Positions 1,448 through 60,725 of a stretch of 64,000 bases of DNA are shown one piece after another. Source of the DNA: an uncultured Saprospiraceae bacterium (GTDB lineage Bacteria > Bacteroidota > Bacteroidia > Chitinophagales > Saprospiraceae); NCBI GenBank assembly GCA_937967615.1, contig CALCMJ010000042.1, forward strand, positions 1-64,000. The letters run 5' to 3'. The translations under genes and the position numbers were made by a program. Below the pieces are notes generated by a model. That model ran no database searches, was not told the origin of the DNA, and saw only the letters and a program-made list of their open reading frames with translations. How positions within the stretch are numbered: position 1 is the stretch's first letter; the number at the start of each line of letters is the position of its first letter.

Positions 1448-3769
1448 TCAAGGTTTTATAACTTTTTCTTTCGCCCTTTTTGCTCTTTGCATGCCATTTT
1501 CTCCTCCCCCTCTTCTACTCGATTTAAACAGCTCAAACCTATCTACTTCTGGTCTAGGTGGATAATGATTATTAGATCTATCTACGTCAGCTGTTTCAAG
1601 AAATGGATCCAGAGTTATTGACTTTATTTCTTTCTCCTTAATAAACACCTTTGTCACCTTGTCGTTCGTAAGCTTCCATATTTCCGCAGGAATTTTTTCT
1701 ACTTCAGTTGTTCCGTCTTCATATGTAAACTCCAAGATGATTGGCATAACCAAACCACCCTTATTCTCAAAACTTATTTCATAATAATTCAAGTCGTCTT
1801 CAATCATCGCTTTCTCATCGTCAGAAAGTGATTTGTAATAATTCTGATAGTTATCTCTATCAATTGCATCCGCTTGTAATTTATCGTGCTTGCTATAAAA
1901 ATCTAAAATGCTTGGATCCTTATCCGCTAATACCGTTTTGATTTCCTTCTTATTGCGCATTGCAGAAATTCCTTCTGACCTGTCGTCTTTCGCTTCTCTC
2001 TTTATCGCATTCTCTTTGTCCGGATCCTTTGTGTTCATCTTCTTGTGCTTAACATCTAACATGGATATGTCTACAGCCTCGTTTGTATAAAACCAGCCTC
2101 TCCAAAACCAGTCCAAGTCTACCCCTGACGCATCTTCCATTGTTCTAAAAAAGTCTGCAGGTGAGGGATGCTTAAATGCCCATCGTTTTGAGTATTCTGC
2201 AAAAGCCATATCAAATAACTCTCGACCCATAATAGTCTCGCGTAAAATATTCAAGGCAGTAGCTGGTTTACCATATGCATTATTACCAAACTGCCAGATA
2301 GATTCTGAGTTTGTCATAATGGGAGAGATCTTATCTCTGTCCCCACCCATATAACTAGTGATTTTATGTGCTGGTCCTCTCCTTGAAGGATAGTTTCTTT
2401 CCCAGTGCTGCTCTGTTAAAAACTGGACAAAAGTATTCAGTCCTTCATCCATCCAAGTCCATTGTCGCTCATCTGAATTGATTATCATTGGAAACCAATT
2501 GTGTCCCACCTCGTGTATAATTACTCCTATATGCCCATATTTAGTTCTTTCAGCGTAGGTCCCATCGTCTGCACATCTTCCATAATTAAAACATATCATT
2601 GGGTATTCCATTCCCATACTACCATCTATAGACCAAGCCGTAGGATAAGGATAGTCCACGGTATAATGCGAATACCACTTAATTGTATGTGCTACTGCCT
2701 TTGTAGAATATTGCTTCCACAGACAGTCCCCTTCTTCTACCCACATTGACTGTGCCATTACCGTTCTACCGTCTTTCATAGGAACTCCCATTGCATCCCA
2801 GATAAATCGTCTAGAACTTGCGAATGCAAAGTCTCTAACGTTCTTAGCAGAAAACTTCCAAGTCTTCTTTCCTTTTGCTTTCGATTTTGATCTATCTAGA
2901 GCTTCATCCAAAGTTGCTATTGTAACTGGTTGTATTTCTTCTTTCTCCGCCTTTTGTAATCTCTTTTTTTGCTCTCCAGATAATACGTCATCAGGGTTTT
3001 GCAATACTCCAGTAGAAGCCACCAGGTGGTCTGATGGCACCGTGATCTCTACGTCATAATCACCAAACACTAAAGCAAACTCTCCCCTTCCTAAAAACTG
3101 TTTGTTCTGCCAGCCATTAATATCGTCATACACACACATCCTTGGAAACCACTGTGCTATACAATACACATTGTTTCCGTCATCAAACGGCTCGTATCCT
3201 GAGCGTCCTCCTATTTCTCTAGTATTATTAATATTATACCACCATTTTATTTTAAAACTAAAACTTCCTCCTGAGGCTAATGAGCTTGGCATATTTACCC
3301 GCATCATGGTTTTATTAATCACATACTTTAGGTCTTGACCCGTAGAGGTCTTTACATAATCAATCTTAAAGCCTCCGTCAAACTCATTAGACATCCTTGC
3401 TATTTGTCTTGATGATGCCTTTTCTCCTAAACTACTTGTTCTGATCTTATAAGTATCTGAGTCTTTGGCTCGCATGTTCTGATCTAGCTGAACCCAGAGG
3501 TAGTCTAATACATCCGGCGAGTTGTTTGTGTAGGTAATTGTTTCTTCACCATAAATTCTGGTCTTATCATCATCTAACTCCACTTTTATAATGTAATCAG
3601 CTTTTTGTTGCCAATATTCGTGTCCTGGTGCACCTGCAGCTGTTCTGTAGGTATTAGGATCAGGAAGTTCTTGATTTAATTGTTTGAATTTGTTTTGGTT
3701 TGTACTTTCTTGTGCAATAGCTAGGCAGCTAATTAATAAGCACACTATTGAGAAAACAGCTTTTTTCAT
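1448..3769 (-). CDS. M1-family zinc metallopeptidase (aminopeptidase-like)
   Basis: This is a 773-residue protein with a signal peptide (about 1-19), so it acts in the periplasm or at the surface. The gluzincin site is intact: HEVGH at 419-423 and the third zinc ligand Glu442 in the motif WMDEG, exactly 18 residues on. Upstream, GMEYP at 386-390 takes the place of the GxMEN exopeptidase motif of classical M1 aminopeptidases. The N-terminal 50-300 fits the M1 beta-saddle domain. The C-terminal 560-773 is Lys/Glu-rich and ends in a basic tail. The family hydrolyses N-terminal residues of peptides; the exact substrate is unknown. It lies downstream of the parS locus and no co-transcribed partner is evident. 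Confidence 0.88.
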   Translation of the reverse strand: MKKAVFSIVCLLISCLAIAQESTNQNKFKQLNQELPDPNTYRTAAGAPGHEYWQQKADYIIKVELDDDKTRIYGEETITYTNNSPDVLDYLWVQLDQNMRAKDSDTYKIRTSSLGEKASSRQIARMSNEFDGGFKIDYVKTSTGQDLKYVINKTMMRVNMPSSLASGGSFSFKIKWWYNINNTREIGGRSGYEPFDDGNNVYCIAQWFPRMCVYDDINGWQNKQFLGRGEFALVFGDYDVEITVPSDHLVASTGVLQNPDDVLSGEQKKRLQKAEKEEIQPVTIATLDEALDRSKSKAKGKKTWKFSAKNVRDFAFASSRRFIWDAMGVPMKDGRTVMAQSMWVEEGDCLWKQYSTKAVAHTIKWYSHYTVDYPYPTAWSIDGSMGMEYPMICFNYGRCADDGTYAERTKYGHIGVIIHEVGHNWFPMIINSDERQWTWMDEGLNTFVQFLTEQHWERNYPSRRGPAHKITSYMGGDRDKISPIMTNSESIWQFGNNAYGKPATALNILRETIMGRELFDMAFAEYSKRWAFKHPSPADFFRTMEDASGVDLDWFWRGWFYTNEAVDISMLDVKHKKMNTKDPDKENAIKREAKDDRSEGISAMRNKKEIKTVLADKDPSILDFYSKHDKLQADAIDRDNYQNYYKSLSDDEKAMIEDDLNYYEISFENKGGLVMPIILEFTYEDGTTEVEKIPAEIWKLTNDKVTKVFIKEKEIKSITLDPFLETADVDRSNNHYPPRPEVDRFELFKSSRRGGGENGMQRAKRAKEKVIKP

Positions 3770-3818
3770 AATACTTTATTGCTTTAAAGTAAAGATAGTT
3801 ATTGCTTTCAGAATTCTA

Positions 3819-3834
3819 TGTTTCACGTGAAACA
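3819..3834. other. parS: parS centromere-like site 1
   Basis: The 16 bp TGTTTCACGTGAAACA form a perfect palindrome and match the conserved ParB-binding parS consensus. The site lies between the M1 peptidase start and the alpha/beta hydrolase stop, 195 bp (centre to centre) from a second site. ParB proteins load on such sites and, with ParA and SMC, organise and segregate the origin region. No parA or parB gene is in the window. Confidence 0.85.
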
Positions 3835-3854
3835 TCACAATAATTTTGTCGTGA

Positions 3855-3952
3855 AGGATTAGGGCATCTCCTGCTGCGCAGGACCGGGCTATTCCAGGGG
3901 TTCCGTCCAGACTAAAGTCTAGACCACACAAAGTGTGCCCTTCCTATCCTTA
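3855..3952. repeat. palindromic intergenic repeat (Bacteroidota mosaic type)
   Basis: This GC-richer block of about 98 bp sits between the two parS sites. Its ends are imperfect inverted copies (AGGATTAGGG... and ...CCCTTCCTATCCT). Inside are short hairpins: TCCTGC/GCAGGA, AGACT/AGTCT and CACAC/GTGTG. The style matches the dispersed mosaic intergenic repeats common in Bacteroidota genomes and resembles the block at 50064-50210. It contains no open reading frame. Confidence 0.55.
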
Positions 3953-4013
3953 TGCAAACACATCGAAGCACATACATTCAGATTATACCTTGGATACACT
4001 TTAAGAGCTTCAA

Positions 4014-4029
4014 TGTTTCACGTGGAACA
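4014..4029. other. parS: parS centromere-like site 2
   Basis: TGTTTCACGTGGAACA is the reverse complement of TGTTCCACGTGAAACA, the parS form known from Bacillus subtilis. It differs from site 1 by one base. It ends 11 bp before the stop codon of the hydrolase gene. The two copies make a double parS locus. Confidence 0.85.
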
Positions 4030-4040
4030 ATGTGCCTCTC

Positions 4041-4793
4041 TTATAATTGCTTATCTAAAAACATCTTAAGAATAGCATTAAACTCCTTTGGTCTTTCCAT
4101 CATTGGCGCATGCCCGCACTTATCTATAAAGTGTAGTTCTGAATTAACTATAAGCTCATTAAATTTTTCTGCAACAAAAGGAGGTGTGATTGTATCTTGT
4201 TTTCCCCAGACTAATAGGGTAGGGCAGCTAATACCATCAAGTTTGTCTTCAAGGTTTTCTCTAATTGCAGATTTAGCTGTGCTTAACAAACGCAATGCTT
4301 TTGATCGGTCGTTTACACTTTCATACACTTCATCCACCATTTCTTTTGTTGCAACCGCAGGATCATAGAATGTAGACGCTGTTCTTGTTTTAATATATTC
4401 GTAACTATTCCTTTTAACAAAACCACTTCCAAAGGTATGCTCAAATAATCCTGAACTTCCAGTTAACGTCATTGAGCGCACTTTCTCCGAATTATTCAGT
4501 GTATATATCTGAGCAATGTGTCCGCCTAATGAATTTCCTAAAAGATGAAAACGATCGTAAGCCTTGAACTTTACAAATGATTCAATGTACTCTACCAAGC
4601 CTCTTACTGTTACCTTTCTTAGTGGCATTTCAAAAATAGGTAGCTTAGGGAGTAAAACATTATAACTATCTGAAAATGAGTCTATTATACTCGTAAAATT
4701 ACTCAAGTTTCCAAACAATCCGTGTAGTAATAAGATGGGTTCTTTACTAGGGTCTGTCTCTATATACTGGTGAGAATTCTCTTCAATTATCAT
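4041..4793 (-). CDS. alpha/beta hydrolase
   Basis: The protein has 250 residues, no signal peptide and the length of a single alpha/beta-hydrolase domain. The oxyanion-hole motif LLLHGLFG is at 21-28, the nucleophile elbow GNSLGG is at 86-91 with Ser88, the acid is Asp200 in GKQD, and the base is His228 in CGHAP, so the triad is complete. The small cap region (about 115-165) would set specificity, which cannot be read from sequence; esterases, C-C hydrolases and haloperoxidase-like proteins share this layout. It lies 18 bp downstream of the heme A synthase gene on the same strand and is probably co-transcribed. The stop codon is 11 bp from a parS site. Confidence 0.85.
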   Translation of the reverse strand: MIIEENSHQYIETDPSKEPILLLHGLFGNLSNFTSIIDSFSDSYNVLLPKLPIFEMPLRKVTVRGLVEYIESFVKFKAYDRFHLLGNSLGGHIAQIYTLNNSEKVRSMTLTGSSGLFEHTFGSGFVKRNSYEYIKTRTASTFYDPAVATKEMVDEVYESVNDRSKALRLLSTAKSAIRENLEDKLDGISCPTLLVWGKQDTITPPFVAEKFNELIVNSELHFIDKCGHAPMMERPKEFNAILKMFLDKQL

Positions 4794-4811: not shown

Positions 4812-5876
4812 TCAATTCGATTTCGCAGATATTAAATACACAAGATACAGCACAATACTTAATAATAGTAAAGCAAAGGCTTGATGCATAACACCTAGAA
4901 AAAGTGGAATTGTTCCTATACAGTTTATAACAGTTAAAATACCTAGTACAACTTGAGTACATAAAAGAAGTAGAAAACAATTAAGAGGTACTCTAAACCT
5001 ATCTTGGTTTTCTTTCTTACCCTTTATAAAAATAATTATCCCATAGAAGAACAATAGATATGCAAGACCCCTATGGATAAAATGCATTAGCGCAGGTACA
5101 AAACTACCTTGATCATAATTATTAAATGACTCTGTATTCCAGTTAGTAGAATTAAATATTTCTGCTGGCACATAGCTACCCAGCATGTCTGGCCAAGTAG
5201 GAAATACCAATCCCGCTTTCATACCGGACATGACGCCTCCAAAAAATAATTGTATTAATAATAGACTAAAAAAGACAGTAATACTTTTCTTAAATCCATT
5301 ACCAAGAGATCTATCCTTTACTAATTTAGGCCAAAAAGAAACAAACGTTGTCCATAATAAAAGACCATAGGTCAAAAAAGCCACTGATAAATGTAAGGCC
5401 AATTTATACGCATTCACCCAAGGTCTATCCACTAAGCCACTTGCTACCATAATCCATCCCATACTCGCTGCTAATATTGCTGCGACAATAACTAAGCCTA
5501 ATAATCGCATTAAGCGCTTATCTATTCGCTTTTTAAAAAGAAAAAATATGAAAGGAAATAAAAAAGCAAAACCCATAAATCTTGCCCAAAGCCTATGAAA
5601 ATACTCCCAGAAATAAATGAATTTAAAATCTGAGAGAGACATACCGTCATTTATTTTTTTGTACTGCGGTGTTTCCTTGTAGAGATCAAATTCCACATTC
5701 CAATCTGTTTCGTTAGTGGGCGGTAGAGTACCGGTGACTATTTCCCACTTTGTTATTGACAAGCCTGAACCACTGATGCGAGTTATTCCCCCTATGATCA
5801 CTTGAAAAAATACCAGAACACACCCCAGTATCAACCAAGCTCTAACCCATTTATCATATCTTTCTAGCATCGTCAC
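4812..5876 (-). CDS. ctaA: heme A synthase (COX15/CtaA family)
   Basis: This 354-residue polytopic membrane protein has about eight hydrophobic helices. The first helix is followed by GGITRISGSGLSITKW, the signature of the COX15/CtaA family. WEYFHRLWARFMGF (about 90-103) and FIHRGLAY (about 263-270) carry His residues that fit the conserved heme ligands, as does MHQAFALL near the C-terminus. The enzyme oxidises the methyl group at C8 of heme O to make heme A for aa3-type oxidases. It implies aerobic respiration with a heme-copper terminal oxidase, although no oxidase genes are in the window. It heads a short minus-strand unit with the hydrolase. Confidence 0.92.
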   Translation of the reverse strand: MTMLERYDKWVRAWLILGCVLVFFQVIIGGITRISGSGLSITKWEIVTGTLPPTNETDWNVEFDLYKETPQYKKINDGMSLSDFKFIYFWEYFHRLWARFMGFAFLFPFIFFLFKKRIDKRLMRLLGLVIVAAILAASMGWIMVASGLVDRPWVNAYKLALHLSVAFLTYGLLLWTTFVSFWPKLVKDRSLGNGFKKSITVFFSLLLIQLFFGGVMSGMKAGLVFPTWPDMLGSYVPAEIFNSTNWNTESFNNYDQGSFVPALMHFIHRGLAYLLFFYGIIIFIKGKKENQDRFRVPLNCFLLLLCTQVVLGILTVINCIGTIPLFLGVMHQAFALLLLSIVLYLVYLISAKSN

Positions 5877-6275
5877 AAAATTACAAATGATTTCCTTTTC
5901 TCATTCTTTAGATATCCACGTTCCTTATTAATAATTAATTATTTTATTTATATAAAAGAAGTAATCATTTATAATAAGGGCTGTTAGGAAGTGTAAAAGA
6001 AAGAATGATTATATAATTGTTTTCTTTACAAAACATTTTAATGCTATGAATTAAGAATAGTATATATTATAACATTCTGAAATTCAAATTATTAACATTC
6101 TATTTGTGAATTGTGTTTAAATTCATTGTGATTAATTAAAATGAAATTTTTACTTCCTGTTAGTGTATTCAATGGGGGAGATTATATTAGGAAAACACAT
6201 ATATTATAAATGTAAATATATCTGTGTTAGTTCATGTGAGTAATTAGCATCATTACAAGTATATATTAACAAGTT
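5877..6275. other. divergent intergenic region
   Basis: This 400-bp, very AT-rich gap separates the minus-strand ctaA unit from the plus-strand dtd directon, so it should carry both promoters. I could not place a promoter with confidence. It holds an inverted pair, AGGAAGTGTAAAA at 5986-5998 and TTTTACTTCCT at 6148-6158, enclosing about 150 bp without coding potential. Confidence 0.4.
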
Positions 6276-6728
6276 ATGCGCATCATTATACAAAGAGTAT
6301 CATCGGCTTCGGTAACAATAGATAATAAGCTAGAAGGAAAAATAGATCTTGGCCTTCTTGTACTATTGGGAATAGAATCTGAAGACAGTAGTTCAGACAT
6401 TGAATGGTTAGTAAATAAGTTGATCAACTTGAGAATATTCTCCGATAATGAAAATAAAATGAATTTGTCAATTGAGGATGTAAAGGGAGATTTTCTAGTT
6501 ATATCACAATTTACCTTGTTTGCAAGCACTAAGAAAGGCAATAGACCCTCATATCTAAGATCAGCAAAACCGGATATATCTATTCCTTTATATAATATGT
6601 TTATAGAAATGCTCAAAAACAAAACACAGCAAAAAGTAGAAGAGGGGATTTTTGGTGCAGATATGAAAGTTGCATTAACAAACGATGGACCAGTAACTAT
6701 AATAATAGATTCAAAGAATAGAGAATGA
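6276..6728 (+). CDS. dtd: D-aminoacyl-tRNA deacylase
   Basis: The protein has 150 residues, the normal size for DTD. It begins MRIIIQRVSSASV, carries SQFTLFA near 80 and ends with NDGPVT near 138. The SQxT and GPVT motifs form the active site at the dimer interface. The enzyme hydrolyses D-aminoacyl-tRNAs (and glycyl-tRNA-Ala) in the cytoplasm as a translation quality check. It is the first gene of a nine-gene directon; its stop codon overlaps the next start by four bases (ATGA), which indicates translational coupling. Confidence 0.95.
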   Translation: MRIIIQRVSSASVTIDNKLEGKIDLGLLVLLGIESEDSSSDIEWLVNKLINLRIFSDNENKMNLSIEDVKGDFLVISQFTLFASTKKGNRPSYLRSAKPDISIPLYNMFIEMLKNKTQQKVEEGIFGADMKVALTNDGPVTIIIDSKNRE

Positions 6729-24694: not shown

Positions 24695-25223
24695 GCAGGA
24701 AGTAACTAGCTTATAACAAGCGTAGAGATTGTATCAAGGAGGAAAAAGTTAAGAACTAGAATTGCGAAGAAAGTGGTATACGAAAATAGAAGATAAATAG
24801 GCTTTTATATTATTTTAAGTTGAGTCGTGTAAATACAGATTTTCAAGTTTTGCAGAACAGTATTTATGATTTTGATTTTCCGCATAAAGGATAGTAAGGG
24901 AGCAAGTGATCTTGATCACGCCGCTGTCATCTTGCAGGCAAGATGACGGAACCCCTTCATAGCCTGACCCATAATGAAGGACTTGTACTGAATTATGTCC
25001 TGAGCAAAGCGAAGGACTTGGGATATGCCCACACTCAGAGAAAGAACAAAACAAAAAATAAAAAGTGGAGATTCTTATAATCCAAACAAAATAATATATT
25101 CTATTTGTTGAAATCTGGCTAATAATATATGCAAGACAGGCTTTTTTCTTAAATTACCTATCACAATAGTCGGTTTTTGCAAATTTATATTTATGTTAAT
25201 AGCCTAAATGAAATTTAGATTCA
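24695..25223. other. intergenic region with palindromic repeats
   Basis: This 530-bp gap separates the lipoprotein gene from the 2-oxoacid oxidoreductase operon. The middle (24900-25035) is GC-richer and palindromic (see the separate repeat entry). No convincing gene is seen on either strand; the overlapping frames have no recognisable protein features. Confidence 0.5.
24905..25035. repeat. palindromic intergenic repeat (Bacteroidota mosaic type)
   Basis: The block holds GTGATCTTGATCAC (24906-24919), a perfect 10-bp inverted repeat GTCATCTTGC/GCAAGATGAC with a two-base loop (24926-24947), two direct copies of GAAGGACTTG (24976-24985 and 25011-25020), and a GTCCTGAGCAAAGCGAAGGAC-like hairpin region. 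This last sequence resembles widespread dispersed repeats of Bacteroidota. It may act as a transcription terminator or be a miniature mobile element remnant. Confidence 0.55.
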
Positions 25224-60461: not shown

Positions 60462-60725
60462 AATATTTGTGTTGTGGTTAAAAATTAATGTTTGTACTTC
60501 TTAATGTTCTCTTTTTATAAAAGTAAACATAAGAGCTTTCGTGCATTGGTGTTGCACGTTAAATATATATATTACAAGATATGATAATGTGAATGATATT
60601 GGCTTACAAAAATGGGATTTTTGTGAGGAGGTGGCAGATTGTTAGATATTAGACCTTGGGTGTACTTTATGACAAGGTGGGCGTTTTAAGAAAACTGTCA
60701 ATGTGGTGCATGATATCGTACGGCT

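Follow-up and report, generated by a model that had tools for sequence, protein, structure and literature searches.

A predicted chromosomal parS pair near the putative replication origin of a Saprospiraceae bacterium, with a dispersed multi-hairpin repeat in its spacer

The DNA analysed here, a stretch of 64,000 nucleotides from an uncultured Saprospiraceae bacterium (the window), contains two palindromes within a single intergenic gap of 271 bp (3770-4040) that is flanked by two minus-strand genes. One neighbour encodes an M1-family peptidase (1448-3769, minus strand), whose start codon lies 50 bp from site 1; the other encodes an alpha/beta hydrolase (4041-4793, minus strand), whose stop codon borders the gap. 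Site 1 (TGTTTCACGTGAAACA, 3819-3834) is a perfect 16-bp palindrome and conforms to the parS consensus TGTTYCACGTGRAACA. Site 2 (TGTTTCACGTGGAACA, 4014-4029) is one base off a perfect palindrome, and its reverse complement, TGTTCCACGTGAAACA, matches the Bacillus subtilis parS consensus, TGTTNCACGTGAAACA. The distance from start to start is 195 bp, with a spacer of 179 bp between the sites. Both the coordinates and a mismatch scan bear out the sequence-only reading, which had proposed two parS sites 195 bp apart in one intergenic gap.

Sites of this kind are rare in the genome, and the two that were found are clustered. Within the window, three sites were detected at ≤3 mismatches (0.38 expected in 64 kb), the third of which, at 60550, has three mismatches and is regarded as background. 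The genome is a draft (3.79 Mb in 190 contigs, 82.6% complete) in which further parS sites could be missing; at ≤1 mismatch it contains the two window sites only, site 1 being its sole parS with no mismatch, and the reversed-pattern control gave no match at ≤1 mismatch in the whole draft. Three further sites with two mismatches are at background level (two for the reversed-pattern control at ≤2 mismatches). The earlier proposal would have been refuted by parS-like sites occurring equally often throughout the genome, and it stands, as the draft has no other such pair.

Between the sites, at 3862-3955 on the plus strand, lies a 94-nt copy of a dispersed multi-hairpin repeat (model R1, 60.9 bits, E = 3e-15). 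The repeat had been described as placed exactly between the sites; it does lie between them, but it is off-centre, beginning 28 bp past site 1 and stopping 58 bp short of site 2. A second copy in the window, at 24882-25000 on the minus strand (59.8 bits, E = 7e-15), is away from parS. Copies measure 86-131 nt and follow one layout, in which GGGC and a variable hairpin precede a conserved core (GGGC..CAGGGGTTCCGTC), and two more variable hairpins lead up to CCCTT..GC. The hairpins differ in sequence from copy to copy, and the stem that joins the ends occurs in several variants (GCGTG/CACGC, GCATC/GATGC, GCATG/CATGC, and GCGAT/ATCGC). This end stem covaries: 118 of 120 possible pairs form, whereas random reassignment of the 3' ends between copies gave a mean of 91 and did not reach the observed total in any of 10,000 shuffles. 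Because hairpin length differs between copies, RNAalifold applied to their MAFFT alignment gave seven pairs only; the pairs of the end stem were tallied on their own. Folded as a single strand, the 179-bp spacer was not better than its shuffles (z = -0.89).

The element is intergenic, as 26 of 28 checked copies overlap no open reading frame of ≥110 residues. The model, built from the window's genome alone, matched at least 68 copies in that genome and at least 52 in a member of the same genus (G001), these counts being lower bounds, with at most 150 candidates scored per genome; when it was run on ten other genomes, no copy was found (2 of 12 genomes positive). No Rfam family matched the elements at E values up to 1, Rfam gave no gathering-level match across the window besides a tRNA, and a literature search for the element's sequence returned nothing relevant. 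A reading as a REP/RAYT element was tried and rejected, since it calls for a repeat-flanked Y1 tyrosine transposase: one weak Y1_Tnp match was found in the window's genome and two in G001, with no element in the ∼3 kb around them. In the congener, a hairpin-rich stretch (locus L046, 1548-1700) that starts with GGGCGTGACC and ends with TCACGC follows directly after the second parS; it resembles the repeat and is unmatched by the model.

The locus was also described as origin proximal, and GC skew supports this for the window, for G001, and for a relative (G056) with its chromosome in one contig of 2.85 Mb. Skew was taken from stretches of sequence, namely, the window, a 255-kb contig of G001, samples along G056, and 20-kb samples around the parS sites of relatives. 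In the window, which holds only 3.8 kb to the left of the parS pair, the cumulative minimum is at 5924, 1.9 to 2.1 kb from the parS sites. This position falls within a divergent gap (5877-6275), where gene strand also switches, between the genes for CtaA/COX15 (4812-5876, minus strand) and D-Tyr-tRNA deacylase (6276-6728, plus strand). The minimum of the G001 contig, at 199259, is inside the matching gap (199034-199439) and 2.3 to 2.4 kb from a parS pair at 196894 and 196941.

The single-contig chromosome of G056 allows the position of parS to be compared with those of other origin-associated genes. Samples through 1.26 Mb have negative skew and those from 1.34 Mb onward have positive skew, and parS is located by this sign change at 1.347 Mb, while dnaA is at 0.92 Mb (0.43 Mb from parS) and parB is at 2.08 Mb (0.73 Mb from parS). 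Because the skew changes sign at parS and both genes are far off, the origin in G056 is marked by parS rather than by dnaA or parAB. As a point against origin proximity, the 20 kb sampled around the parS sites of several members of the family (e.g., G003 and G017) gave no simple skew pattern of minus on the left and plus on the right.

The gap between the CtaA and D-Tyr-tRNA deacylase genes is a candidate oriC for the window's genus. It is AT rich (79% in the window and 76% in G001), and a block of 34 bp is identical between the two. In G018 and G026 the matching gap is enriched for DnaA-box-like 9-mers (five and four, respectively), with 0 of 300 simulated sequences as high; enrichment was sought in the gaps of the window and G001 and was found in neither, and it is for this reason that the assignment stays at candidate level.

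The partners that a chromosomal centromere calls for are encoded in the genome. A chromosomal-type ParA-ParB operon is located on contig C36, and its ParB, the one chromosomal-type ParB of the genome, is 303 residues long and has the CTP-binding-pocket motif GERRWRA and, as expected, a helix-turn-helix; among proteins of solved structure, its best matches are ParB proteins (E = 1e-55). For Smc-ScpAB the search covered the kleisin, ScpA, the gene for which is on contig C85 and was found in all 10 genomes tested (that of the window and nine relatives). The presence of genes for ParA, ParB, and ScpA makes it plausible that the parS pair serves as a ParB/Smc loading site, as was suggested from the sequence.

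We consider it very probable that the palindromes are chromosomal parS sites (a centromere) ∼2 kb from the origin and that the repeat is an unrelated element, which probably lengthened the spacer. For the most part the locus belongs to a familiar class, that of ordinary chromosomal centromeres close to a predicted origin, and it is well supported, with a clear pattern of conservation. By analogy with ParABS biology, ParB dimers would be loaded at both parS sites, as clamps that depend on CTP, and from there slide onto adjoining DNA, ParA would move the ParB-parS complex and thereby separate sister origins, and Smc-ScpAB would be recruited at the pair. The dispersed element would have lengthened the spacer in the window's lineage, from the usual 35 to 47 bp to 195 bp, with no demonstrable effect.

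The spacing was compared with that of relatives. Five tight pairs in the same family, including that of the congener, span 35 to 47 bp (G003, 46; G001, 47; G017, 46; G018, 47; G005, 35 bp), and because of this the 195-bp spacing of the window is probably derived from a close pair. Other family members have longer spacings (81, 170, and 596 bp), and spacing is not fixed. The element accounts for 94 bp of the difference and leaves ∼54 bp over (the spacer minus the element is ∼85 bp, versus a spacer of 31 bp in G001), so that a single clean insertion does not explain the whole difference.

It could be argued that the repeat is instead a functional part of the centromere kept by selection, e.g., one that spaces or blocks ParB clamps as they slide. 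The chance that any of 68 copies would land in the 179-bp spacer is ∼3%, a rough figure that assumes random intergenic insertion and 12% intergenic DNA and that is suggestive at most of a nonrandom location; the hairpin-rich sequence just outside the congener's pair points the same way. Nevertheless, the other copies, at least 67 in number, are not near parS, matches occur in only 2 of 12 genomes, the congener's pair has no copy detectable by the model, and conserved pairs elsewhere have a plain spacer of 30 to 60 bp, all of which make selection for such a function very unlikely. Chance insertion is the simpler reading of the repeat's place, and we take the element between the parS sites to be a passenger. 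Equally doubtful is the compound proposal that the repeat represents an undescribed genus-level family of structured three-hairpin elements and that its copy here alters the spreading of ParB clamps between the parS sites.

Conservation across the order addresses the identity of the palindromes themselves. The exact sequence TGTTYCACGTGRAACA is present in 186 of 299 genomes of the order versus 3 of 299 for the reversed control, at one to five (usually one to four) exact matches per genome; some of the 113 genomes lacking an exact match carry degenerate sites. At least two sites, with degenerate outer bases allowed, were present within the ∼3 kb read at 49 of 56 inspected loci, mostly 27 to 130 bp apart (range, about 30 to 700 bp). 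A tight pair or cluster of predicted parS sites is the usual layout in the order. In the window's family the sites are mostly between the genes for threonine synthase and the M1 peptidase or adjoining either, and in Neolewinella, Lewinella, and Phaeodactylibacter they are upstream of the same M1 peptidase gene. No parS was found around this gene in loci labelled Flavobacteriales or carrying Cytophagales names. A literature search for parS in Saprospiraceae gave nothing relevant. Two individual loci have pairs that apparently lie within coding sequence, that of threonine synthase in L049 and possibly that of mnmG in L060.

The position of site 1, 50 bp ahead of the start codon of the M1 peptidase gene, and the presence of parS immediately upstream of that gene in many members of the family are what would be expected if the palindromes were CACGTG-centred operators through which a transcription factor controls the peptidase gene. 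This is highly improbable, as the same sites occur at ybeY-mnmG (in several other families of the order), at nadD, or within coding sequence, and relatives were found in which the sites are off the M1 gene yet still at the origin. The occurrence of an exact parS 16-mer in a genome that encodes ParB, and a position at the skew minimum, would also be unexpected for a gene operator. That the neighbouring genes vary while the clustering is kept argues for a chromosomal rather than a gene-regulatory role. Degenerate sites with two mismatches do exist elsewhere in the genome, but chance as the source of the two palindromes is a negligible prospect given the low expectation at ≤3 mismatches, the lack of any control match at ≤1 mismatch, and above all the conservation of parS pairs across the order, which refutes it.

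Identification of the palindromes as probable parS sites gives a poorly studied family an origin and a centromere predicted from sequence. In G056, the single relative that allowed the measurement, the parS cluster lies apart from dnaA and parAB. The difference in spacer length (35 to 47 versus 195 bp) is a natural variant that could be used to test the cooperation of neighbouring ParB loading sites, and the dispersed element may merit separate study.

The window's parS sites resemble those of the Bacillus subtilis Spo0J/ParB type in their 16-bp consensus and in being few and near the origin, and the window's genome likewise encodes a ParB with the GERRxxA CTP-binding motif and a helix-turn-helix, together with ScpA. 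Unlike the B. subtilis type, parAB is not beside parS (0.73 Mb away in G056, where dnaA is 0.43 Mb away), and the sites of the order form a tight pair or cluster, with one to five exact sites per genome. A Hi-C study of gut Bacteroidota found that parS clusters mark the origin and that the origin is not reliably at dnaA (PMC10197239), in agreement with G056. The two Bacteroidota of that study, Bacteroides caecimuris and Muribaculum intestinale, were reported to be without known condensins (PMC10197239), whereas all 10 genomes tested here encode ScpA. In Caulobacter crescentus, the strong parS sites 3 and 4 are on one 260-bp segment (PMC5815017), and the window similarly has a pair of parS sites no more than a few hundred base pairs apart near the origin; C. 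crescentus has at least five clustered sites, versus the two found in the draft genome. The element shares with REP and CGTC-tagged repeats (PMC3733652) a dispersed, intergenic, palindromic nature and, as in the CGTC-tagged repeats, has CCGTC ahead of its second hairpin and no dedicated transposase found adjoining. Unlike REP, with its single hairpin of 20 to 40 bp, the element spans 86 to 131 nt and combines three variable hairpins with a covarying end stem.
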